From the IMG/VR virus record IMGVR_UViG_3300026097_000136, positions 1-20,008 of that record: DNA of 20,008 bases. The stretch is one strand, 5' to 3'. The stretch comes from a virus. Positions 1,996 through 20,008 of the stretch are shown here, in pieces (the first letter of the stretch is position 1; each line of letters begins with the position of its first letter). The translations under genes and the position numbers were made by a program. The notes below the pieces were generated by a model, which was not told where the DNA came from, did no database searches, and was given only the letters and a program-made list of their open reading frames with translations.

Positions 1996-3123
1996 TTACG
2001 ATTGGTAAAAGTTAGCTACCGCCTCGAAACATCGGCGCAATTGCGATGGAGTAGGGTGCAGGTAATGCACCAACGTCACGTCAGCACCGCCCGAGTGATT
2101 CAGCGCGGCCTTGATGACCGGGTATTGAACGTCCTGCTCACTGGCGGTGATGGCGAACATTTTGCGCAGGTCATGAGCGCCAAAAAATGGGACATCTTTA
2201 ATGACACGCAAGGCGTGGCGTGGGCCGTTTGAGCAGACAAACAATTTATGCTCTGGCTTGCGGTCTTTAAGGAAGGGCTTCAGGACGTCCACCAGCGCGT
2301 TGCACAGATAGACCTTGTGGTCGGTATGGGTCTTGGTAGCACGCAGCGTGGCACAACCCTCTAGCAGATCAATATCGCCCACCAGCAGACGGTCCACCTC
2401 ACCTAGACGGCAACCCGTGTAAAGCAAGAAAATGCCAAAGCACACCGTTGGTGTCTTTTCCATGGCCATTAGCTGACGCAGGATGATCTGCCCGTGCTTA
2501 GGTTCAAGCCGCGCACGTTTGGCACGTGGGGTTTCAAGCTGTACTGAGCGCGGGATTTCGAAAACCCCATCCATGTAAGACACCACGGTCTTTAAAAACT
2601 TGATGGCCTTGGTAGCGCGGATAGGAGTGCTAGCATCGCACATGTCGATATACATGGCGTTGATGTCGGCCGGGGTCATTGCCAATGGGTCTTTATCTAA
2701 ATGAGCATTCAAAGGACCATCGCGCAATTGCTCATAGAAACGAACAGTGGCCGGGCGCATGCGAACATTCTTTTTGAAATATGTCTCAATAAATTTCCGG
2801 ATGGTCGGGACGTTTGCTTGAGCTTCAGCTTCTTTTTTGGCCTGCTCAGCATCCAGTCTGGCCTGCTCAAAACGATCATGTCCTTGGCGCAGTTCTACAT
2901 ATACCTGCTGAGCCATGGCACGTGCGTCCTTGTAAGGCATGGACAGCGCGTCACCAAGGGCGTATTTGTAACGTTTGCCCGAGGCTTCAGTCTTTACAAA
3001 CCAACTGCGCTTGCCAGAACGGTATACGCGCAGGAAAAGACCGGGCGTTTGCGCGTCGGGCAAATACAGATCTTTGGTGGGGTTGGGCTGGGTTGTCTTG
3101 GCCACTGTGTCGTTCAGTCTCAT
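1996..3123 (-). CDS. int: tyrosine site-specific recombinase (phage integrase)
   Basis: This protein of about 375 residues integrates and, with an excisionase, excises the phage at the adjacent attachment site. An N-terminal DUF4102-like arm-binding domain (LYLPDAQTPGLFLRVYRSGK...YALGD) is followed by a core-binding domain and a C-terminal catalytic domain. Visible catalytic signatures are TGCRLGE (first Arg), TKTH (Lys region), HDLRK (His-x-x-Arg), LNHS (His) and VHYLH (Tyr nucleophile). The order and length fit P4-type prophage integrases. I chose ATG 3123 because GGAG lies 7 bases before it. The longer TTG start at 3150 would run into the arm-type repeats. The gene reads away from attP. 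It is probably driven by the promoter at 3194-3224, which overlaps a GTTAAC box. Confidence 0.95.
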   Translation of the reverse strand: MRLNDTVAKTTQPNPTKDLYLPDAQTPGLFLRVYRSGKRSWFVKTEASGKRYKYALGDALSMPYKDARAMAQQVYVELRQGHDRFEQARLDAEQAKKEAEAQANVPTIRKFIETYFKKNVRMRPATVRFYEQLRDGPLNAHLDKDPLAMTPADINAMYIDMCDASTPIRATKAIKFLKTVVSYMDGVFEIPRSVQLETPRAKRARLEPKHGQIILRQLMAMEKTPTVCFGIFLLYTGCRLGEVDRLLVGDIDLLEGCATLRATKTHTDHKVYLCNALVDVLKPFLKDRKPEHKLFVCSNGPRHALRVIKDVPFFGAHDLRKMFAITASEQDVQYPVIKAALNHSGGADVTLVHYLHPTPSQLRRCFEAVANFYQS

Positions 3124-3139
3124 CAATGCTCTCCGTCTC

Positions 3140-3159
3140 AAGGTTCGCAAAAGGTGCGC
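3140..3159 (+). repeat. arm-type integrase sites, left pair
   Basis: AAGGTTCGC (3140-3148) and AAGGTGCGC (3151-3159) are tandem copies with an 11-base repeat length, in the same orientation as the pair on the other side of the core. Tandem short direct repeats about one helical turn apart on both sides of a core are the usual form of integrase arm sites. They lie just upstream of the chosen integrase start. Confidence 0.6.
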
Positions 3160-3193
3160 AAATTTTGTTTCCGTGTTGCGACTTTCAAGACAG

Positions 3194-3224
3194 ATGTTAA
3201 CACTTTAAACGCTTTTCACGTCAA
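3194..3224 (-). promoter_or_regulatory. probable integrase promoter overlapped by a GTTAAC box
   Basis: On the minus strand TTGACG (3224-3219) matches the -35 consensus at five of six positions. A -10 may be TAACAT (3199-3194, spacing 19) or may lie at GTTAAC (3201-3196, spacing 17). TGTTAACA (3195-3202) is the same box found twice at the repressor operator, so a bound repressor would cover the -10. Promoter assignment is by eye only. Confidence 0.4.
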
Positions 3225-3283
3225 TTATTTTTGAAAATTTGTGCAAAGTGCTAAGTCATTGATTCTAGTGACAACACGAAGCA

Positions 3284-3330
3284 GAATCATAATCCGTAAG
3301 TCCGGGGTTCGAGTCCCTGATGCGCCACCA
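3284..3330 (+). other. attP: attachment-site core: 3' part of a tRNA with CAT anticodon
   Basis: Bases 3286-3292 form an anticodon loop with CAT at 3288-3290. A T arm follows (CGGGG / TTCGAGT / CCCTG, all five pairs formed, one of them G-U), then an acceptor strand ATGCGCC, discriminator A and CCA (3328-3330). No matching GGCGCAT 5' half or D arm lies upstream, and the fifth anticodon-stem position already shows an A-C mismatch, so it is not a working tRNA gene. Integrases commonly use the 3' end of tRNA genes, and the phage copy rebuilds the gene after insertion. The target is probably an elongator tRNA-Met or a tRNA-Ile2 gene. The left limit of identity cannot be fixed without the host sequence. 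Confidence 0.8.
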
Positions 3331-3355
3331 ATCTTTTCAATAACTTAGCGTACTT

Positions 3356-3375
3356 TTGTTAACGTGAGTTAACAA
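3356..3375. promoter_or_regulatory. two-box operator-like palindrome inside attP
   Basis: TTGTTAAC (3356-3363), spacer GTGA, GTTAACAA (3368-3375): a perfect 8-4-8 inverted repeat. The two GTTAAC boxes are 10 bp apart centre to centre, as at 7807-7824 beside the repressor gene. It lies between the core and the right arm repeats. Neither strand has a T tract directly after it, so it is not a typical terminator. A regulator or architectural protein site is more likely. Confidence 0.55.
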
Positions 3376-3386
3376 GAAAAAATCTC

Positions 3387-3406
3387 AAGGTGCGCTGAAG
3401 GTGCGT
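3387..3406 (+). repeat. arm-type integrase sites, right pair
   Basis: AAGGTGCGC (3387-3395) and AAGGTGCGT (3398-3406), again with an 11-base repeat length and in the same orientation as 3140-3159. They end exactly before the stop codon of the excisionase-like gene. Having both pairs around one core argues that the window shows attP and not a prophage end. Confidence 0.6.
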
Positions 3407-3598
3407 TTAGAATTCATCACGCATGTACTCTCGTATAGCGTCGGCTGAATACAACACTCGACCCTCTGGGGTCTTGAACCAGTGAACATATTTCTTGGCA
3501 CGGCCTGCCGCGACCCGATAACGCTGCTTGCGCAAAGTGGTCACAGAGATGCCAATAATCGTGGCCGCTTCGTGTTCGGTAAAAAATTTCTTATCCAT
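3407..3598 (-). CDS. excisionase-like helix-turn-helix protein
   Basis: A 63-residue basic protein. FFTEHEAATIIGISVTTLRK at residues 5-24 is a MerR/excisionase-type helix-turn-helix. It is followed by a wing-like segment (YVHWFKTPEGRVLYS) and a final helix (ADAIREYMRDEF). AGGAG lies five bases before ATG 3598, and the start overlaps the upstream gene by eight bases. The frame stays open further upstream, but that stretch is out of frame inside the preceding gene. As the last gene of the recombination operon, directly beside the attachment site, it is a good candidate for the recombination directionality factor that turns the integrase toward excision. A plain transcription factor remains possible. 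Confidence 0.75.
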   Translation of the reverse strand: MDKKFFTEHEAATIIGISVTTLRKQRYRVAAGRAKKYVHWFKTPEGRVLYSADAIREYMRDEF

Positions 3599-4076
3599 TT
3601 TTGCTCCTATAAACCTTGGCTTTTTCCATGCTGACGTAAGCGTTATTGCGCAGCACTTCACCGCCATTGACCGTGGCTTGCGTGACCGTGTTTCGGATGG
3701 CCATGTCCAAAACAAGTGATCCGTCAGGCTCGCTGAACTTCTCGACCAGCAATGTTTTGTCCGGCACCAGATACAGAAAACCCAGTAGGGGGACCTGAAA
3801 CCCGGTGGCAATCTGCCGCGCCTGCTCCAGCTTTTCCCACGTGAGTAACCACTGGCTCCAATACTCTTTCGTAAAAGTCTCCAAGGTGCATTGCCTGCAC
3901 TTGGTTTCAACGATGGCGTATATCTCACCATTGCGAGTCAGCGCAGCATCGACCCGCGCTGGTTTGTCTTTTGGGGTGTGGACGTAGTCAAGGCTTGGGA
4001 AATGTTCCTTGAAAATAGCAACTGCTTCCAGCTCTTGCGACACGGTTTTCTGACCTTTTGGCGTAAGTATGTCCAT
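3591..4076 (-). CDS. PD-(D/E)XK nuclease-like protein
   Basis: 161 residues. A segment RVDAALTRNG (Asp43) followed by EIYAIVETKC (Glu57-x-Lys59) has the spacing of the Asp...Glu-x-Lys active site of PD-(D/E)XK nucleases. The flanking strands and a following helix (FTKEYWSQWLLTWEKLEQAR) fit the fold core. It sits between a RuvC-like resolvase and the excisionase-like gene, so a DNA-processing job in recombination is likely. It begins seven bases after the resolvase stop with only a weak ribosome binding site, suggesting coupled translation. The fold assignment rests on one motif and context, so activity is inferred. Confidence 0.65.
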   Translation of the reverse strand: MDILTPKGQKTVSQELEAVAIFKEHFPSLDYVHTPKDKPARVDAALTRNGEIYAIVETKCRQCTLETFTKEYWSQWLLTWEKLEQARQIATGFQVPLLGFLYLVPDKTLLVEKFSEPDGSLVLDMAIRNTVTQATVNGGEVLRNNAYVSMEKAKVYRSKNG

Positions 4077-5523: not shown

Positions 5524-6148
5524 GTGCGTTCTCCTTAATAGCTAGGATGGTGTCGTTGATTTCCAAGTTGAAATCGTGGACGTAGTTTTGAATCTTCGTA
5601 ATCAGTGCATCATTGCGCTCAATCCAGAAACGCTTCATGCACATATCTAATGGCAGGCGCGGATCGTAATAAACGAGCCACGCATATCGACTATTGGTGC
5701 AAGCCATTTGCCACTGAACCTGCATGACGTAACGTTCATCAGGCTTGTTGTCGTTGATGGTTTGCAACATGGTTTTAGTGGTAGGACACTTAATCTCAAT
5801 AAGCCCGTCCGCACCGATCAGGCCGTCAGGGGAAGCCCCTGCATAATCCATGCCCGGGTGCTGGATGAAACCCGTCTGGTCAACTTCAATTTCGTACTTG
5901 CCTTCAAAGAACTCTCGAGCCTCTGGCTCGGTCTCGGTTCCCCACTGCATCGCCGCATTCACATACTTGGCCATGCAAACGCCAGTGATGCGCTCTTCGA
6001 CCAATTCCCAAAGGTAGTCAATACGCTTGGCTGACCAACTGCCGTTTTTGTTTTGCTCCATAACATCGGCGATGCGTGAGGCGGTGATGCGCCCACAGCG
6101 GGCCTGAAACCATTCGGTACTACCTTGGGTGTATTGAGAAGAATCCAT
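5513..6148 (-). CDS. YqaJ-type (lambda Exo family) exonuclease
   Basis: 211 residues. The start MDSSQYTQGSTEWFQAR and ITASRIADVM match the N-terminal signature of YqaJ viral recombinases (QGTxEWxxxRxGxITASR). The catalytic region follows: YAGASPDGLIGADG with the conserved Asp, then LIEIKCP with Glu-x-Lys, and a later QVQWQMACT helix. The enzyme degrades one strand at DNA ends to give single strands for the annealing protein encoded just upstream. AGGAG stands nine bases before ATG 6148; the frame extends further upstream, but only inside the ERF gene. It overlaps the ERF gene by 29 bases and the SSB-like gene by 11, showing a coupled cassette. Confidence 0.9.
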   Translation of the reverse strand: MDSSQYTQGSTEWFQARCGRITASRIADVMEQNKNGSWSAKRIDYLWELVEERITGVCMAKYVNAAMQWGTETEPEAREFFEGKYEIEVDQTGFIQHPGMDYAGASPDGLIGADGLIEIKCPTTKTMLQTINDNKPDERYVMQVQWQMACTNSRYAWLVYYDPRLPLDMCMKRFWIERNDALITKIQNYVHDFNLEINDTILAIKENARER

Positions 6149-7783: not shown

Positions 7784-7806
7784 GACTCGTCTCCCAACGA
7801 TTTAAC

Positions 7807-7824
7807 TGTTAACACAAGTTAACA
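7807..7824. promoter_or_regulatory. repressor operator, two GTTAAC boxes
   Basis: TGTTAACACAAGTTAACA is a perfect 7-4-7 inverted repeat in the 129-base divergent region between the repressor and the rightward operon. Its boxes are 10 bp apart, on one face of the helix. A degenerate relative (TTTTAACTAGTAACAA, 7880-7895) lies nearer the rightward genes. A possible rightward -35 TTGATT (7843-7848) lacks a good -10, so I do not place promoters firmly here. Confidence 0.6.
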
Positions 7825-7912
7825 CTTTCTGAACAAAACGTGTTGATTTCCTGTCCTACTTGAATTACGCTTGCGGTGTTTTAACTAGTAACAACATCAC
7901 AGGAGTAGCAAC

Positions 7913-11929: not shown

Positions 11930-12436
11930 ATGGGACAGGAAAAAAACCACGGTTCTGCGAGTGAGACAGGGAAAGGGGAGGGAGGCGAGAATGCTTCGCA
12001 TCTCGAACGCCCCAGATCGCCCCTGACCGGCGCGCCTGTTCCCGGCGGGAGACCGAAAGGCGTTCCAAACAAAATCACACGAACATTCAAGGCAGCGGCC
12101 GAGAAAGCCTTCGAGAAGGGCGGTGGCGTGGACTGGCTGGTCAAGATGATGAATGGCACGGCATCAGACCGCGCAGCGGTGCTACAACTCTACGGCAGGC
12201 TCATCCCAGCGCAGCTTCAGGGCGAGGTCAACCACTCGGTAAAGGTGCAGCTAACCTTCGCGCAAGGGCGCAATATCGCCCCAAATCTGCCCAGTGATAC
12301 GCAATCCGCTGGTGGTCGGCAGATACCCCATGATAATCAAGACGTTATAGACGTTGAGCCTATACAGCGCGACTCAAGGTGCGGTGAGGGTGTTGACGCA
12401 GACCAAGACAAGGGCAATGGTCATGACCAGACCTGA
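11930..12436 (+). CDS. putative terminase small subunit
   Basis: 168 residues. The N-terminal 35 residues are charged and disordered-looking. GGRPKGVPNKITRTFKAAAEKAF is a basic motif typical of phage proteins encoded just before the large terminase. It is followed by helical segments DWLVKMMNG, RAAVLQLYGRLIPAQLQGEV and an acidic, Gln/Asp-rich tail (DVIDVEPIQRDSR). The small subunit recognises the packaging site and loads the motor. Position 111 bases before the large subunit supports the call, whereas sequence similarity to well-studied TerS proteins is not visible to me. The start has no ribosome binding site and directly follows a -10-like hexamer. Confidence 0.65.
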   Translation: MGQEKNHGSASETGKGEGGENASHLERPRSPLTGAPVPGGRPKGVPNKITRTFKAAAEKAFEKGGGVDWLVKMMNGTASDRAAVLQLYGRLIPAQLQGEVNHSVKVQLTFAQGRNIAPNLPSDTQSAGGRQIPHDNQDVIDVEPIQRDSRCGEGVDADQDKGNGHDQT

Positions 12437-12448
12437 TCGCCTGCTGGC

Positions 12449-12483
12449 AGACCCACCCCCCCTAACGACCCGACGGGGGGTCT
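12449..12483 (+). repeat. GC-rich hairpin between small and large terminase
   Basis: AGACCC (12449-12454) pairs with GGGTCT (12478-12483), and inner runs of C and G (12456-12462 with 12475-12480) offer further pairing in shifted registers. No T tract follows, so it is a weak candidate for termination. It may modulate translation of the large terminase or serve packaging. The rest of the 111-base gap shows only a GAGGG ribosome binding site. Confidence 0.35.
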
Positions 12484-12547
12484 CTGTTTCCGTTTCCGGA
12501 CCCTCCCATCCAAAATTACCCCACCAGATCGTATTTTCGAGGGCGGC

Positions 12548-13885
12548 ATGAACTCAATTATTGAATACAAGCCCCGAGAGCAATTGATTCCTTTTCACAG
12601 CAGGGACAGGCGCTGGACGGTAATTGTGGCGCACCGTCGTTTTGGAAAAACATTTGGCGCATGCGCGGACTTGGTTATTGGGGCGCTTGAGACAGGTCTT
12701 CACCGGCCGCAGTTTGCTTACCTTGCTCCTCAGCGAGAACAGGCGAAACGCACGGCATGGGCATATCTGAAAGAACTGACCGAGCCTGTTTGGCACAAGA
12801 AGCCAAATGAAGCCGAGTTGAAGATTGAACTTGATAACGCGCACGGTGGTGTCTCAACGATTTACGTTGGCGGGGCTGACAATCCGGACGCGATGCGTGG
12901 CTTGTATTTCGACGGCGTGATTTTGGACGAGTTTGGAGACATGAGGCCGGGGGCGTGGTTGTCAGTTTTGCGCCCTGCATTGTCAGACCGTCGCGGTTGG
13001 GCTGTCTTCATGGGAACGCCCAAGGGCCGCAACATGTTTTGGACAATGCGCGAAGAGGCGCGGTTGAATCCTGACACGCACTTGTTGCTTGAATTCCCGG
13101 CGAGCAAGACGGGCATTATTCACCCCGACGAACTGGAGCAGGCGCGGCTTCAGATGACCCCTGAGACCTTTGCCATTGAGTACGAGTGTTCGTTTGATGC
13201 GTCGATCCCGGGCAGTTATTTTGCCCGTGAGTTGGGGGCGGTGTTTGAGGCCGGGCAGATTGGCAACGAAGAGCGTTTCCAGCGCGACCCTGACTTTCCG
13301 GTGTCGGTGGTGGGGGACTTGGGTTTTACCGACAGTTGCGCGTGGTGGGTGTGGCAAAAGGCACCCGGTGGTTTTCGGGTGGTGGATTACTACGAGGCCG
13401 ATGGGCGCGACATTGGGCATTACGTTGAGTGGATACGGTCACTGGGCAATGTTGAAGATGTGTGGTTGCCGCATGATGCCCGGGCCAAGAGTCTTCAGAC
13501 CGGGCGCAGCATTGTGGAGGTTTTTTTGTCTTCAGGGATAACCCCGAGGCTTGTTCCTAAGGCGAAGTTTCACGATGGGATCGAGGCTGCTCGGCAGGTG
13601 ATCCCGGCGTGTTGGTTTAACGAGGACAAGTGCTACGCGGGGCTAGAGCATTTGCGGGCGTACTGTCGGCTGTGGGATGAGAAAACCGGGACCTTTAAGG
13701 ACCGCGCTAATCACGACAGCCACAGTCACGCCGCTGATGCGTTTCGTTATTTTGCGCAGTGTTGTGGGCATGTGCAGGTCCAAGAGGTGTTTACACCAGA
13801 GGCAACACGTGAAACAATTCAAACATACGGGTTTTCTCTTGAAGACCTTTACGCGGCGAAGCCGTCACCGAGCAGGCGGATTTAA
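12548..13885 (+). CDS. terL: terminase large subunit
   Basis: 445 residues, the ATP-driven packaging motor and nuclease. Walker A is AHRRFGKT (28-35), Walker B VILDEFG (124-130) and the coupling motif FMGTPKG (154-160). The C-terminal RNase H-like nuclease has Asp257 in VGDLGFTDS, Asp310 in LPHDA and Asp398 in SHAADAFRY. The length is usual for the family. It works with the small subunit and docks on the portal encoded next; the stop and the portal start share one base (TAATG). GAGGG precedes the ATG by four bases. All key residues are present. Confidence 0.96.
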   Translation: MNSIIEYKPREQLIPFHSRDRRWTVIVAHRRFGKTFGACADLVIGALETGLHRPQFAYLAPQREQAKRTAWAYLKELTEPVWHKKPNEAELKIELDNAHGGVSTIYVGGADNPDAMRGLYFDGVILDEFGDMRPGAWLSVLRPALSDRRGWAVFMGTPKGRNMFWTMREEARLNPDTHLLLEFPASKTGIIHPDELEQARLQMTPETFAIEYECSFDASIPGSYFARELGAVFEAGQIGNEERFQRDPDFPVSVVGDLGFTDSCAWWVWQKAPGGFRVVDYYEADGRDIGHYVEWIRSLGNVEDVWLPHDARAKSLQTGRSIVEVFLSSGITPRLVPKAKFHDGIEAARQVIPACWFNEDKCYAGLEHLRAYCRLWDEKTGTFKDRANHDSHSHAADAFRYFAQCCGHVQVQEVFTPEATRETIQTYGFSLEDLYAAKPSPSRRI

Positions 13886-16011
13886 TGGCTACCAGTGAGA
13901 TAGAGACTTTAGAAGACGCGCAGTCGCCCGTGAAGATGTGGGCGCAAGAGATCAGTGCTGCGCAAGAGTTCATGAAGCCTTTTCAGAAAGAGGCGAAGAA
14001 GATCAACCGTCGGTTTTTGGACAAGCGCGAGGCGACCGAAGACAGCGAGTACCGCGTCAATTTGTTTTGGTCCACGATTAAGGTTGTGATGTCGATGTTG
14101 TTTGCTCGGCCCCCACAGGTGGTGGTCAAGCGCGAGTATGACGACTACAACGACGATGCCAGTCGTGTGGCTAGTGAGATTTTAGAGCGATTGCTTAACA
14201 ACGACGTGCAGGGCGACGGTAGCACCAGTCGCGCCAGCATTCGGCTTTCGTTGCAGGACTGGGCCACGCTTGGCATGGGTCAGGTCTGGAATCGTTATGA
14301 AGTGGAAACGACCACCGAGATGACCGAGCCTGTCATTGACCAAATGACGGGCATGGAGATGGAGCCTGCTCAGGAGTACGAGCGCTTGGTGTCAGAAAAT
14401 GTGGTGACGGACTACGTGTTTTGGGATGATTTTTTGTATTCACCGGCCCGCATTTGGGCCGATGTTCGTTGGGTGGCTCGTAGGGTGTACATGACCCGCG
14501 ACGAGTTGATTGCCCGATTTGGCGAGGAAGTTGGCAAGCGCGTCCCGATGGCCAAGTCGCGTCCCAAGGCAGAGCAATCGCCCAGTGGTGCGCAGATGCC
14601 ACCGCCAAAGGATCCGTGGTCACGTGCCAAGGTCTGGGAGATTTGGGATAAGTCGAGTCGTTCGGTGGTGTTTTATGCTGAAGGGTGTGATTTCCTTTTG
14701 GATCAGGTCGAGGACCCTTTGCAGCTAAAGGATTTCTTCCCGTGTCCTGAGCCGTTGCTTGAGAACACGACCACGGCTGAGTTGGTGCCGCGCTCAGATT
14801 ATGTCATGGCGCAAGATCAGTTCAATCAGTTGGACGAAATCAACACCCGGATTTCGTGGCTTACCCGTGGCATGAAGTTGGTTGGTGTGTACGACAAGTC
14901 GGCCGAGGGTGTGCAGCGCATGCTGAATCAGGCCACAGAGAATCAGTTGATCCCTGTGGACAACTGGGCGCTTTTTGCCGAAAGCGGCGGTTTGAAGGGC
15001 AAAGTTGAGTGGATGCCGATTCAGGACGTGGCCGCGGTATTAGAGCGACTGATAATGCTGCGCGAGCAGGTCAAGGGTCAGATTTATGAGGTGTTGGGCA
15101 TTTCCGACATCATGCGCGGTTCGACCAAGGCCAGTGAGACAGCGTCGGCCCAGCAACTGAAGGCGCAGTTTGGTTCTACCCGAATTTCGGAGAAGCAGCA
15201 GTCAGTCGGCATGTTTGTTCAGCGCGTTCTTGGCATCAAGGCCGAGATTATTGAAAAGCATTTTCAGCCAGAGACAATTGCGCAGCGCTCGAATGTGATG
15301 ATGACCCCTGACGCGCAGTTGGCACCACAGGCCATTCAGCTTTTGAAGTCACCTGACGCAGTCTCGTATCGGGTGTCGGTGCAATCTGAGACGATGGCTT
15401 ACCAAGACGAGCAATTTTTGATTAAGAGTCGCACTGAGGCTTTGACCGCCATGGGTCAGTTCTTGCAGCAAGCAAACGCGGCAGCCCAAACGATGCCACA
15501 GACAGGCCCCATGTTCTTGGAGATGGTCAAGTGGTACATGTCTTCATTTCACGGTTTCCAGAGCATTGAGGGCGTGTTGGACAAGGCCATCATGCAAGCG
15601 AACCAAGTACTGGCACAGCCAAAGCAGCCTGACCCGAAAGAGGCGGCTGAGGTTCAGCGTGACTACGCTGAGATCGAAGAAAAGAAAGCGGGTGCGCTTG
15701 AGCGTCGTGCAGGTGCGGCCAAGGACTTGGCAGAGACCGCACTCAAAGCGCGTGAGGCCGGGATGCCGTTCCCGCCGATCCCGCCAGAGCCACTATTGCC
15801 ACCCATGGGCGCAGGCGGTATGCCGCCGATGATGCCGGGTGGGCCACCAGTTTCACCGGGGCAGGGAGGTATGTCTCCGTCTCCGTCTCCGCAACCCCCC
15901 GCGCAGCCTTCTCCTGTTGCGCAGCCCCCGGTGAATCCTAATCAACCACCACAGCCCCAAATGCCAGCACCGCCTCAGTTACCACCGGGATCACAGGGAG
16001 GTCAGCCATGA
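13885..16011 (+). CDS. portal protein with a proline-rich C-terminal tail
   Basis: 708 residues, similar in size to P22-type portals. It forms the ring at one head vertex through which DNA enters and leaves. Supporting features are the position after terL, the N-terminal helical part with NLFWSTIKVVMSMLFARPPQV, VTDYVFWDDFLYSPAR, and long helices (residues about 310-460, including QFNQLDEINTRISWL and MLREQVKGQIYEVLGISDIM), all usual in portal stems. Residues 555-625 are a charged helix. The last 82 residues are about 40 percent proline with Met, Gly and Gln, clearly disordered, and not needed for the portal fold. The stop overlaps the next gene as ATGA. Confidence 0.92.
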   Translation: MATSEIETLEDAQSPVKMWAQEISAAQEFMKPFQKEAKKINRRFLDKREATEDSEYRVNLFWSTIKVVMSMLFARPPQVVVKREYDDYNDDASRVASEILERLLNNDVQGDGSTSRASIRLSLQDWATLGMGQVWNRYEVETTTEMTEPVIDQMTGMEMEPAQEYERLVSENVVTDYVFWDDFLYSPARIWADVRWVARRVYMTRDELIARFGEEVGKRVPMAKSRPKAEQSPSGAQMPPPKDPWSRAKVWEIWDKSSRSVVFYAEGCDFLLDQVEDPLQLKDFFPCPEPLLENTTTAELVPRSDYVMAQDQFNQLDEINTRISWLTRGMKLVGVYDKSAEGVQRMLNQATENQLIPVDNWALFAESGGLKGKVEWMPIQDVAAVLERLIMLREQVKGQIYEVLGISDIMRGSTKASETASAQQLKAQFGSTRISEKQQSVGMFVQRVLGIKAEIIEKHFQPETIAQRSNVMMTPDAQLAPQAIQLLKSPDAVSYRVSVQSETMAYQDEQFLIKSRTEALTAMGQFLQQANAAAQTMPQTGPMFLEMVKWYMSSFHGFQSIEGVLDKAIMQANQVLAQPKQPDPKEAAEVQRDYAEIEEKKAGALERRAGAAKDLAETALKAREAGMPFPPIPPEPLLPPMGAGGMPPMMPGGPPVSPGQGGMSPSPSPQPPAQPSPVAQPPVNPNQPPQPQMPAPPQLPPGSQGGQP

Positions 16012-16340
16012 CGCGCAGACGTTGGCGACAGATGCCAGACGGCACATTAGTCGAAGTTGATATCCACAGTGGTGGGACTTCCAGAAATGGGAACGGCGAT
16101 GACGCTCTGTGGGGAGATCGCTCATACGATGGGCTACGCGCCCCCGATGGTACGGACATATCAAGTCGCACCAAGCACCGTGAATATCTTAAGCGCACAG
16201 GGCTGACCACTTACGACGACTTTGCAGGCGAGTTCTCTAAGAAACGCAAAGAGCGCGATGAGTACCACCTTGGGCAACGTGGCTCTGTTGCCAAAAACGA
16301 CATCAACGCAGCAATCGAATACCTAAAATCCCGCCGATAG
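16008..16340 (+). CDS. conserved protein between portal and scaffold
   Basis: 110 basic residues. It starts MTRRRWRQMPDGTLVEV and contains DGTDISSRTKHREYLKRTGL, a block I have seen in proteins at the same place in other short-tailed phages. The C-terminus is helical (KKRKERDEYHLGQRGSVAKNDINAAIEYL). It is translated from an ATGA overlap with the portal and ends nine bases before the scaffold. It may help head assembly, but its role is not established. Its high content of Lys and Arg contrasts with the acidic scaffold next to it. Confidence 0.8.
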   Translation: MTRRRWRQMPDGTLVEVDIHSGGTSRNGNGDDALWGDRSYDGLRAPDGTDISSRTKHREYLKRTGLTTYDDFAGEFSKKRKERDEYHLGQRGSVAKNDINAAIEYLKSRR

Positions 16341-16349
16341 GAGCAGAAA

Positions 16350-17483
16350 ATGCCACCCGAAAACACCACCACAGAGCAACCCGAAGACGATTTGCGGGCA
16401 TCATTAGAGTCCGCATACGAAGAAAAGGCTGAAATAGAGCCACAAGACCCTCCAGAACCGCAAGAAAGTGCGCCAGCGGACGAAAATTCGTCTGAAACGC
16501 CCGAAAACACGTCTTTAAGAGACGAAATTGACGAGAAATCGTCAAAAAAGCCTGAAGAAGGCGAAAAAAAGCCCTTTGTAGAGGTCAAAAAGCCAAATCA
16601 GCCACCTTCGGAAGACGACAAAACCGAAATAGCGGAAAAAGACCCGATTGCCAAAGCCCCACAGGCGTGGAAACCCGAAGCACGTGAGCATTGGGACTCA
16701 ATCCCGGCTGAAGCGCGCAAAGAAATTGTGCGTCATGAGCAGCAAGTCAAAGAGACCTTGCGTGAGACGGCTCAAGCACGTCAATTTGCTCAAGCAGTGA
16801 ATCAAACCATCCAGCCTTACCAGCATTTCATCAAGGCTGAAGGCGGCAATCCCATATCGGCCATTGATAATCTGTTCAGCACGGCAGCCATGCTGCGTAC
16901 CGGCAACGCCGAGCAGGTGGCCAATCTAGTGACGCAGATTACCAACCAGTTTGGTATCAATCGTTTTGGTAAAGAATTTGTGCGCAAATTGGACGAGTCT
17001 TTGTCTGGCGCATCTCCCAAAGAAGACCCGCCTGAAATTGCGGCTTTAAAGCAGCAATATGAGCAGCAACTGGCTCCTTTGCGGCAGATGCAGGAACAAT
17101 TCCAGCAACAGCAGTATTACCAGCAGCAACAGGCCCAACAAGCCACGCAAGCGGAGTTGCAGCAGTTTGCCAGTCAAGCGGAGTTTATGGAAGATGTCCG
17201 AATGGACATGGCCGATTTAATGGACCTTGCGTCCCAGCAGGGCAAGCAAATCACCTTGCAAGAGGCTTATGACAGAGCTTGCTGGGCGAATCCCGAAATC
17301 CGCAATGTTTTGACCAAGCGGCAACAGGCAGAGCAAGCTCAGCAGGTCAATCAAACGGCGCAGCGGGCTAAACGTGCAGCAGTTAGCGTAAGCGGATCAG
17401 CACCTCCTTCCGGTTCCCAAACATCTGGTGGCGGGAATTTGCGCGACGATTTGGAATTTGCGTTTAGTCGGGTTTCACGTTGA
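16350..17483 (+). CDS. head scaffolding protein
   Basis: 377 residues without Cys-rich or catalytic motifs except a single Cys near residue 311. The first 110 residues are acidic and rich in Glu, Pro and Ser, probably unfolded. A helical middle follows (WKPEAREHWDSIPAEARKEI, HEQQVKETLRETAQARQFAQ), then a region of many glutamines (residues about 230-275, QQYEQQLAPLRQMQEQFQQQ) and more helix. Such an acidic, coiled-coil protein directly before the coat gene is the usual scaffold, which builds the procapsid and then leaves. AGGAG lies six bases before the ATG. No protease domain is seen. Confidence 0.85.
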   Translation: MPPENTTTEQPEDDLRASLESAYEEKAEIEPQDPPEPQESAPADENSSETPENTSLRDEIDEKSSKKPEEGEKKPFVEVKKPNQPPSEDDKTEIAEKDPIAKAPQAWKPEAREHWDSIPAEARKEIVRHEQQVKETLRETAQARQFAQAVNQTIQPYQHFIKAEGGNPISAIDNLFSTAAMLRTGNAEQVANLVTQITNQFGINRFGKEFVRKLDESLSGASPKEDPPEIAALKQQYEQQLAPLRQMQEQFQQQQYYQQQQAQQATQAELQQFASQAEFMEDVRMDMADLMDLASQQGKQITLQEAYDRACWANPEIRNVLTKRQQAEQAQQVNQTAQRAKRAAVSVSGSAPPSGSQTSGGGNLRDDLEFAFSRVSR

Positions 17484-17531
17484 TTGTTGTTTTAGTTAAA
17501 ACAGTCTAAAATAGTCCAAACAGGAGTTCAT

Positions 17532-17560
17532 ACAACCGACCTGTTGATTTAATCGGTTGT
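17532..17560 (+). repeat. hairpin in the scaffold-coat intergenic region
   Basis: ACAACCGA (17532-17539) pairs with TCGGTTGT (17553-17560) around a 13-base loop. The 161-base gap 17484-17644 also contains an A/T-rich stretch with TAAAAT-like hexamers (about 17498-17512) and the coat ribosome binding site GGAG, seven bases before 17645. No T tract follows the stem. It may adjust coat mRNA level or stability. Confidence 0.4.
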
Positions 17561-17644
17561 CAATGAGCGACCCACGACGGGACTCAATTGAAAAGACGGC
17601 CAAGAAGAAAGTTTTTCTTGTTCAATTTTTAATGGAGTCTCGTC

Positions 17645-18625
17645 ATGAGCATGAACATTAGCGACATCGTCGCAACTACGATTGAAAGTCGTAGCCGCAA
17701 AATTGCGGATAACGTTACCGCCAACAATGCACTTCTCACACGTCTGAACAACGCAGGCGGCATCCGTGAGATTACTGGTGGCTCAGTCATTTACGAAGAG
17801 CTGAGCTATCAAGAAAATTCCAACTTCGGTTTTTACTCGGGTTTTGACCTTTTGCCGGTTGCTGCGCAGTCGGTTATCAGTGCTGCTGAGTTTCAATTGA
17901 AGCAAGCCGCTGTGCCTGTCACGGTGTCTGGTCTTGAGTACCTACAAAACGCGGGCCGTGAGCGCATGATTGATTTGCTCGAAGCCCGTTTGAAAGTGGC
18001 TGAGTCAACCATGGCCAACAAGCTGGCCAGCGCCATTTACGGCGACGGTACAGCAGACGGCGGTAAGAGCATCACAGGTTTGAACGCAGCCGTTCCTACC
18101 GACCCATCAAGCGGCACTTACGGCGGCATTGACCGTGCAACGTGGCAGTTCTGGCGCTCACAAGCGTTTGATGCAAATGTTGATGGTGGCTCTACCACGG
18201 GCATCACGTCTGCCAACGTGCAGACATTCATGAACGCTTTGTGGTCTAAGCTGATTCGTGGCTCTGACCGTCCCGACCTGATCGTCTGCGACAACCAGTT
18301 CTGGTCGGCTTTCATGGGTTCTTTACAGCCTCAGCAGCGTTTCACTGACCCACGTTCAGCCACGCTCGGTTTCGATTCGATCAAGTTCATGTCTGCGGAC
18401 GTGGTGCTTGATGGCGGGATCGGCGGCGCATGTCCTGCTAACACGGCGTTTTTCTTGAACACCGACTACATCTTCTGGAGACCGCACCGTGATCGCAACA
18501 TGACCACGATTGGACCAGAGCGTCGGTTCTCAGTTAACCAAGACGCTGAAGTGCAGGTCATGGGCTGGGCAGGTAACTTGACATGCTCAGGCTCTCAGTT
18601 CCAAGGTCGGTTGTTTACGACCTAA
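17645..18625 (+). CDS. major capsid protein (HK97-type fold inferred)
   Basis: 326 residues. It sits after the scaffold gene and has the composition of a coat protein: few Cys, many Ala, Gly, Thr. An N-terminal helix (ISDIVATTIESRSRKIADNV) is followed by an E-loop-like strand region (GGSVIYEELSYQENSNFGFYSG) and a spine-helix region (MIDLLEARLKVAESTMANKLASAIYGDG). The C-terminal region ends FSVNQDAEVQVMGWAGNLTCSGSQFQGRLF. It forms the icosahedral shell. GGAG lies seven bases before the start. Its own terminator follows at 18662, so the coat message may accumulate separately. Confidence 0.9.
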   Translation: MSMNISDIVATTIESRSRKIADNVTANNALLTRLNNAGGIREITGGSVIYEELSYQENSNFGFYSGFDLLPVAAQSVISAAEFQLKQAAVPVTVSGLEYLQNAGRERMIDLLEARLKVAESTMANKLASAIYGDGTADGGKSITGLNAAVPTDPSSGTYGGIDRATWQFWRSQAFDANVDGGSTTGITSANVQTFMNALWSKLIRGSDRPDLIVCDNQFWSAFMGSLQPQQRFTDPRSATLGFDSIKFMSADVVLDGGIGGACPANTAFFLNTDYIFWRPHRDRNMTTIGPERRFSVNQDAEVQVMGWAGNLTCSGSQFQGRLFTT

Positions 18626-18661
18626 TCGGTTGTTCGCTGTGGTGGTGAGCAACTTTGGGAG

Positions 18662-18694
18662 TCTCGGGCATTTGCCTGAGATTCCCCCTTTTTG
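18662..18694 (+). terminator. terminator after the coat gene
   Basis: TCTCGGGCA (18662-18670) pairs with TGCCTGAGA (18673-18681), including one G-U pair and closing over a tiny loop, and is followed by TTCCCCCTTTTT. It fits an intrinsic terminator, probably partial because structural genes continue. The T tract runs directly into the ribosome binding site of the next gene. Confidence 0.6.
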
Positions 18695-18703
18695 GAGAAA
18701 GAC

Positions 18704-18943
18704 ATGCCTACGTTCGCATCTTCCAAAGCCCCGATTGCCTATCTTGACGACCCTACTCAACCCTTGGGCGGCTTGAATCAAGGCATGGGCTATTCAACAG
18801 ACATTGACCCCGCAACAGTTACTACCGGGTCGTTTTTAGGTGGCGCAGCCGCGACCATCAAATACCAAGCAGGCGCACAAGTTGTTCCAGACGTTCAGGA
18901 GCCAGTTCAAGAGCCTGCTGTCAAAAAGGCAGTTAAGAAGTAA
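18704..18943 (+). CDS. small head-associated phage protein, unknown
   Basis: 79 residues from ATG 18704, with GGAG six bases upstream; an upstream in-frame TTG at 18692 overlaps that site and is not used. The protein is low in predicted structure: YLDDPTQPLGGLNQGMGYSTDID, a Gly/Ala-rich centre, and a tail of VPDVQEPVQEPAVKKAVKK with a near repeat VQEPVQEPAVKKAVKK. Position between coat and connector genes suggests a minor head or decoration protein. I do not recognise the family. Confidence 0.7.
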   Translation: MPTFASSKAPIAYLDDPTQPLGGLNQGMGYSTDIDPATVTTGSFLGGAAATIKYQAGAQVVPDVQEPVQEPAVKKAVKK

Positions 18944-18948
18944 TCCAC

Positions 18949-18966
18949 GGGGGCCATCGCGCCCCC
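18949..18966 (+). terminator. GC-rich hairpin in a short intergenic gap
   Basis: GGGGGC (18949-18954) pairs with GCCCCC (18961-18966) around CATCGC, followed by ATTTCT. A short stem of six G-C pairs with a weak T stretch; probably an attenuator or mRNA-stabilising structure between two head genes and not a full stop. Confidence 0.4.
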
Positions 18967-18988
18967 ATTTCTCATGGAGCAATAAAAA

Positions 18989-19624
18989 ATGAATGACACC
19001 ACCACGATTCCAAGCGAAGGTCTGACACTAGACGAGTTGCAACGCAACCCGTTTGCTGAAGAAGTGGCCAATCAGTACGGCAGCCCCGACGATGACAAAA
19101 AACTCATCGTGCGGTTTTACATGAACCCGGTAGAGCAAAAAGCTGAGTCAATTAAGGCTGGGCGCAAGATTTTCAAAGACACCGAGTACATCGAAATCCT
19201 GACCCCGGGCGACAAGTATTCCATCATCAAGCGTCAAGTCTTTGATATGGATCGTCGCCGTTTTGCCGACGCATATGCTCGCTTTAAGGCTGGCCAGCAA
19301 AACACTGTTTCCGGTACGCCGTTAAGCACCTTGGTGTGGATGAGTGACTCACGGGTTAAAGAGTATGAGTTCTTTAACATCTTGACCGTTGAGCAGCTTG
19401 CGCAGGCCTCAGACGGCTCCCAAGTGGCTCAAGTCATGGGCTTTCAAGAAGATAAACGCAAAGCGCAGAACTTTTTATCCACCAGCGAAAGCGACGCTCC
19501 CATTGCTGAGATGCGAGCCAAATTAGATGAACGCGACGCTCAGTTGCAATTGTTGCAAACCCAGTTGGCAGAGTTAAGCGCCAAAGTTGAAAAGCAGCCT
19601 ACGGCTCGAGCCGCTAAGGGGTAA
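18989..19624 (+). CDS. head-associated phage protein with C-terminal coiled coil
   Basis: 211 residues. The globular part (LIVRFYMNPVEQKAESIKAGRKIF, YIEILTPGDKYSIIKRQVFD, RRRFADAYARFKAGQQNTVSG) seems to bind no cofactor. A C-terminal heptad region, EMRAKLDERDAQLQLLQTQL..LSAKVEKQ, forms a coiled coil. Proteins of this kind follow the coat gene in several short-tailed phages and are present in the particle or needed for assembly, but their exact role is not established. GGAG lies nine bases before the ATG. The stop is three bases from the next start. Confidence 0.75.
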   Translation: MNDTTTIPSEGLTLDELQRNPFAEEVANQYGSPDDDKKLIVRFYMNPVEQKAESIKAGRKIFKDTEYIEILTPGDKYSIIKRQVFDMDRRRFADAYARFKAGQQNTVSGTPLSTLVWMSDSRVKEYEFFNILTVEQLAQASDGSQVAQVMGFQEDKRKAQNFLSTSESDAPIAEMRAKLDERDAQLQLLQTQLAELSAKVEKQPTARAAKG

Positions 19625-19626
19625 AT

Positions 19627-20008
19627 ATGAACGCTTATGAGATCAACCAATACGCTACTTTGTACGACATCACCCGCGAAGTCGCGACTATGGTTGGTCT
19701 TAATAAGCCTCAAGACCCGGCCGGGTCGTCTGATGCCAATATTCAGCAATTAGTGTCGGCAGTTAACCAAGCTGCGCAAGACATGTTCAACCTCTACGAC
19801 TGGCAGCAGCTAGTCAAGAAGTACGAGGTCGAAATTAAAGCAGACGAACCCGGTCAGCGCGAAAAATCGTTCGATTTGCCACCGGACTTCTGGTGTTTTA
19901 TCGACCAGACGCAGTGGAACAAAGACACGCGCCTGCCTGCCATTGGCCCCATCAGCCCGCAAATGTGGATGCAAATTAACGTCCGAATGCCGATGGTTGT
20001 GTTGACGT
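19627..20008 (+). CDS. connector/tail-adaptor-type protein (partial, runs off the right edge)
   Basis: 127 residues are visible, with no stop before the edge. AAGGGG stands five bases before the ATG. The N-terminus is helical (NIQQLVSAVNQAAQDMFNLYDWQQL), followed by strands with FDLPPDFWCFIDQTQWN and RLPAIGPISPQMWMQI. A Tyr-Asp-Trp block followed by an LPxDF block, a tryptophan-asparagine pair and an R-x-P-x-x-GPIS segment fits the proteins that close the portal and begin the tail in P22-like and BPP-1-like phages. Full identification needs the missing C-terminus. Confidence 0.7.
   Translation, partial: MNAYEINQYATLYDITREVATMVGLNKPQDPAGSSDANIQQLVSAVNQAAQDMFNLYDWQQLVKKYEVEIKADEPGQREKSFDLPPDFWCFIDQTQWNKDTRLPAIGPISPQMWMQINVRMPMVVLT

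Follow-up and report, generated by a model that had tools for sequence, protein, structure and literature searches.

A likely attP with paired arm sites around a tRNA-Met half in a temperate tailed phage, and a repeat motif common to the site and the repressor region

In the attachment sites of P2-like phages, the core is flanked to the left and to the right by two arm sites in direct repeat (PMC3931495). In coliphage 186, the Apl protein acts as both an excisionase and a regulator and binds 6-bp direct repeats, spaced at 10–11 bp, at attP and between the promoters of the switch (PMC7498355). Integrase promoters that overlap att regions form a further point of reference, as autoregulation has been reported for them (PMC2951348). 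The locus considered here lies in a stretch of 20,008 bases (hereafter the window) from the IMG/VR record IMGVR_UViG_3300026097_000136, which represents a temperate, tailed phage of a probably proteobacterial host. Its segment 3140–3406 is in all likelihood the attP of this phage, and roles can be proposed in it for the integrase, IHF and an excisionase. That the segment is a complete attP had been claimed in the original prediction, and the claim is supported by the gene context, with phage DNA on both sides, by a half-tRNA, by two plus two direct arm sites and by the recurrence of the half-tRNA in other phages.

The segment is framed by four sites of the form AAGGTKCGY, all in one orientation and arranged as two pairs with an 11-bp period that flank the tRNA half (Table 1). 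The two 23-nt blocks 3136–3158 and 3383–3405 are identical at 20 of 23 positions; a 23-mer direct repeat with at least 20/23 identities appeared in none of 500 dinucleotide-preserving shuffles of 2900–3700, and a two-pair quartet with period 11 in none of 100 such shuffles. The pattern of arm pairs is thus far beyond chance. The single 9-mer is not rare, with 18 matches at up to one mismatch in the window against 7.2 expected, and it is therefore the pairing and placement of the sites that carry the argument. The repeats, their period, their common orientation and their coordinates had all been predicted, and all of them can be read directly from the DNA.

Table 1. Features of the candidate attP region and of the repressor region, in window coordinates
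Feature	Position	Strand	Basis
Tyrosine integrase gene, 375 aa, with N-terminal arm-binding domain	1996..3123	-	Pfam; ATG 3123, GGAG upstream
Left arm site 1, AAGGTTCGC	3140..3148	+	direct reading, motif count, shuffles
Left arm site 2, AAGGTGCGC	3151..3159	+	direct reading, motif count, shuffles
GTTAACACTTT, candidate switch-protein site, identical to 7818–7828 at the repressor operator region	3196..3206	+	
IHF-like site AATCAATGACTTA, 0 mismatches to WATCAANNNNTTR	3252..3264	-	consensus match
Core, 3' half of elongator tRNA-Met, anticodon arm to CCA, 47 nt	3284..3330	+	ARAGORN, alignment
IHF-like site TTTCAATAACTTA, 1 mismatch, inverted relative to 3252–3264	3335..3347	+	consensus match
TTGTTAACGTGAGTTAACAA, two GTTAAC 10 bp apart, candidate switch-protein site	3356..3375	.	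motif search, shuffles
Right arm site 1, AAGGTGCGC	3387..3395	+	direct reading, motif count, shuffles
Right arm site 2, AAGGTGCGT	3398..3406	+	direct reading, motif count, shuffles
63-aa winged-HTH protein, candidate excisionase (RDF)	3407..3598	-	HTH_17, phrog_66, predicted structure
CI-type repressor, 205 aa	7166..7783	-	HTH_31/HTH_3, phrog_8/phrog_4
CTGTTAACACAAGTTAACAC, operator-like site, 18/20 pattern positions in common with 3356–3375	7806..7825	.	motif search, shuffles

The core between the two pairs is a tRNA half with the anticodon CAT at 3288–3290 and the CCA at 3328–3330, exactly as had been proposed. ARAGORN finds no whole tRNA in the window, a 5' tRNA half is absent as well, and all 47 nt of the half align at 89.4% to an ARAGORN-confirmed whole tRNA-Met of Neisseria gonorrhoeae. 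The same half recurs in five other IMG/VR contigs at 44–45 of 47 nt and with an identical left boundary beside the anticodon loop, a common boundary which suggests that strand exchange takes place there; the 7-bp overlap would probably be ATCATAA at 3286–3292. The core of these five contigs reads GAATCATAATCCGCAGGTCCGGGGTTCGA(G/A)TCCCTGATGCGCCACCA, 2–3 nt off that of the window, and in four of the five (L052–L055, with a full reading in L055 only) an unrelated integrase-like coding sequence lies 3' of the core. At 3296–3299, two bases set the core of the window apart from those of the other phages (TCCGTAAG vs TCCGCAGG), located where the anticodon stem ends and in the variable loop; the difference suggests another host species or a drift of the phage half. 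The expectation that the half would match a tRNA gene in host genomes found no support, as neither an exact nor a relaxed pattern recovered a match, an attB or an integrated copy in about 85,000 genomes (genome_contigs); this negative is a weak one because both patterns demanded TCCGT, and the other phage cores have TCCGC. The pattern corrected for this restriction is GAATCATAATCCGYARGTCCGGGGTTCGARTCCCTGATGCGCCACCA.

Two IHF-like sites lie between the arms and the core, which they enclose as an inverted repeat with 12/13 matching positions. Equally good inverted repeats arose in 3 of 60 shuffles and at least two IHF-like sites in about 9% of shuffles, making their number not significant, so that the argument for them is one of placement rather than of number. 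The flanks of the core are rich in A+T, with a G+C content of 34% in 3160–3283 and 29% in 3331–3386 as against 52% in the whole window. Neither the IHF-like sites nor the motif shared with the switch, discussed below, formed part of the original prediction.

The integrase gene starts at the ATG at 3123, rather than at the TTG at 3150, and reads leftward, away from the site, in agreement with what had been predicted. Its product combines a C-terminal catalytic domain (Phage_integrase, 2.6e-12, 47.3 bits vs the curated cut-off of 27.1 in Pfam) with an N-terminal Arm-DNA-bind_3 domain (3.9e-11, 43.4 bits vs a curated cut-off of 27), and the R, HxxR, H and Y motifs are visible when it is aligned with two other integrases. 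The arm domain additionally matches the solved domain of a CP4-like integrase (3jtz, E 0.001). The protein is a divergent one, showing 21–28% identity to records of the phage and plasmid collections and having no close relatives in viral_contigs; its single-sequence structure prediction is poor (pLDDT 42), with the N-terminal three-strand-plus-helix part alone reaching about 70. A search of 3000–3700 for a consensus sigma-70 promoter or a terminator found none. As the left arm pair falls in the integrase leader, autoregulation is plausible by analogy with other att regions (PMC2951348).

At the other edge of the segment, where an excisionase-like gene had been predicted, a small HTH gene does end at 3407, directly adjoining the right arm pair, and its excisionase label derives from weak matches. 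The 63-aa protein matches HTH_17 at 4.5e-4, which is below the Pfam cut-off, and phrog_66 ("excisionase and transcriptional regulator") at 4.5e-4, and its single-sequence model (pLDDT 69.5) resembles MerR/BldC domains; the excisionases Pukovnik Xis and RdfS are among the weak matches of this model, none of which is at E <= 0.001. These matches make it a candidate excisionase. This gene and that of the integrase, which attP separates, are both read leftward. While the genome is circular, early transcription in this direction could cross attP and enter the integrase gene; after integration, the latter would lie at the other end of the prophage.

The integrase and small genes occupy the left part of the window. 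Past the att region follow the HTH_17 gene and the genes for a PD-(D/E)XK protein, a Holliday junction resolvase, a YqaJ exonuclease and an Erf annealing protein, with the CI-type repressor, primase/helicase-like proteins, terminase, portal, major head protein and tail protein further along; close relatives of the repressor and of the RuvC-like protein were not found in viral_contigs. The best DNA relative (G001, with the loci L002 and L048) aligns to 12011–20008 of the window at 76% and to 1–505 at 93% identity, and the greater closeness of the left end compared with the structural genes points to an exchange that took place recently within the lineage. Following the left-end gene that it has in common with the window, G001 carries a different integration module at the matching map position, comprising a tRNA-Asn 3' half (L048 about 5829–5878, by our own reading of the sequence) and another integrase. 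This shows that integration modules have been exchanged at this map position. The window integrase has an aligned identity of 20% to that of G001, mainly in the catalytic motifs, whereas the integrase of L055 is 60% identical to the latter. Thus, among related phages, one tRNA-Met half with one boundary is shared by two unrelated integrase families, while 60%-identical members of a single family use either tRNA-Met or tRNA-Asn. The two modules that display this natural change of target within one integrase family are L048:5829–6962 of G001, where the integrase uses a tRNA-Asn half, and L055:10978–12106, where it uses a tRNA-Met half. The late genes of G001 also include an RVT_1 reverse transcriptase gene (L048:449–1489), which weakly matches models of group II introns, retrons and DRTs.

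The presence of phage genes on both sides is the reason for reading the segment as an attP and as neither an attL nor an attR. The contig is linear and partial, with no end repeats on the complete 20,008-base record, and metagenome contigs can be chimeras, which would accommodate an origin of the segment as the end of an integrated prophage (attR) or as an artifact of assembly. However, both flanks align to one sister phage, G001, with the integration module at the matching place, and the fact that this phage has a different module after the common left-end gene makes a prophage end or a chimera less likely; an attR is additionally at odds with the lack of a 5' tRNA half and with the matching arm pairs on both sides. 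Such an origin is therefore highly improbable. A different challenge concerns the arm sites themselves, as the AAGGTGCG pairs might be bound by a replication initiator, the excisionase or a regulator, with the true arm sites elsewhere in the segment. Other phage contigs do have tandem AAGGTGCG arrays with a period of about 11 bp that are not near integrases, in some cases within replication-like genes, and the integrase has no close relatives in the collections searched on which the arm motif might be compared. Against this stand the P2-type layout (PMC3931495), in which a pair on each side of the core, in one orientation, lies directly between the core and the int and xis genes, and the arm-binding domain of the integrase, and the assignment of the pairs to another protein is accordingly improbable.

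With the segment taken as attP, a course of events can be proposed along known lines. The N-terminal arm domain of the integrase would bind the two AAGGTGCG pairs and its catalytic part the tRNA-like core, and IHF-like bends between the arms and the core would bring the arm sites and the core together. Strand exchange would then take place at the anticodon loop of the host tRNA-Met gene, with the half borne by the phage rebuilding the host tRNA upon integration, and the small winged-HTH protein, whose gene adjoins the right edge, may promote excision.

The candidate switch-protein site in the gap between the core and the right arm bears on how these events might be tied to the lysis–lysogeny decision. 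The exact arrangement GTTAAC-N4-GTTAAC occurs in the window only there and at the operator-like site, which sits 23–42 bp upstream of the repressor start, and its frequency by shuffling is 1 in 20,000 in each of the two regions. Since the motif was first picked in attP, it is its second appearance, at the switch, that counts as independent evidence. In G001 and L055, which have other modules, the motif was not seen, and a motif shared between switch and attP does not rise above shuffles. The pattern in the window suggests that one switch protein may act both at attP and at the repressor region, like Apl of 186, and on the simplest reading this would be the 63-aa protein, in a dual role of the Apl kind. 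More tentatively than the steps set out above, the lysis–lysogeny regulator, whether this small HTH protein or the repressor, might thus also bind attP through the GTTAAC pair. The pair in attP might be an operator of the CI-type repressor, and not a site of the small HTH protein, in which case either transcription through attP or recombination itself would be gated by the repressor. The GTTAAC pair forms a perfect 20-bp dyad, and its second copy lies 23–42 bp upstream of the repressor start; nevertheless, 6-bp direct repeats 10 bp apart at both attP and the switch are just what Apl of 186 uses (PMC7498355), and for a repressor a single dyad in the switch region is a small number. A role as repressor operator may hence be accorded a substantial chance, if somewhat short of an even one. 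A more elaborate version, which is rather doubtful, has the immunity repressor seated on an operator within attP, in the core–arm gap, such that derepression would directly free the site for recombination, and integration would sever the integrase from the early operon by virtue of attP lying between the leftward excisionase and integrase genes. Whether a single protein couples immunity to recombination could be tested in a simple way on the shared GTTAAC pair.

The four arm sites had also been thought to provide a clean recognition model for an integrase of this type, and this did not hold up. A scan of IMG/VR with the pattern AAGGTGCGNNNAAGGTGCG for a tandem AAGGTGCG pair recovered 14 other contigs, only three of which have any tyrosine recombinase, and in none of the 14 was the pair seen around an att core. 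With so few recombinases and no flanked core, AAGGTGCG cannot serve as a general model; as a general arm motif the pair is rejected, most arrays elsewhere being away from integrases. The one array near an integrase gene (G045) is found at the 3' end of that gene, which has a tRNA-like half upstream. Longer arrays with a period of about 11 bp, located off integrases, are seen in unrelated phage contigs (L062:8079–8119, L066:2328–2357, L070:2961–3001, L071:3383–3422 and L072:10907–10925), some of them inside replication-like genes by our own gene reading, and these are possible iterons of replication origins. A further phage contig has AAGGTGCGAC repeats, both direct and inverted, around an intergenic stretch (L063:12177–12232).

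Several parallels might be struck between this site and the described systems. The closest named relatives of the portal protein are those of the Myxococcus phages Mx8 and Mx9 (about 41% identity); for the integrase of the window, a search of the phage collection at E 1e-5 yielded nothing. With the modules of L052–L055 the site has the tRNA-Met half in common, and with G001 the phage lineage and the map position; however, the integrase of these modules is unrelated (20% aligned identity), is without a match to the arm domain and lies on the opposite side of the core, and the half in G001 is that of tRNA-Asn. In the KplE1/HK620-type modules (PMC2951348), the att region overlaps the integrase promoter, and the left arm pair of the window is likewise situated in the integrase leader, but here the integrase and the intact tRNA would end up at opposite ends of the prophage and no consensus promoter was found. 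The likeness to 186 Apl and P2 Cox is that attP and the lysis–lysogeny switch both carry short direct repeats with a spacing of one helical turn (PMC7498355); in 186 these number five and seven, whereas here each cluster has no more than two, with one further single repeat, the sites are palindromic, and for the binder there are only candidates. With the P2-type attP, finally, the site has in common that directly repeated arm sites stand in pairs to the left and right of the core, but it differs in its tRNA-half core and its Arm-DNA-bind_3 integrase, and the portal and other genes of the phage are not P2-like. What emerges is a compact annotated attP, with arms, IHF-like sites, core and candidate switch-protein sites, for a divergent integrase that stands without close relatives in the collections searched. 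Thus, the site may be seen as a well-preserved attP of a known kind, to which a DNA motif of the dormancy switch, placed inside the site itself, adds a twist.
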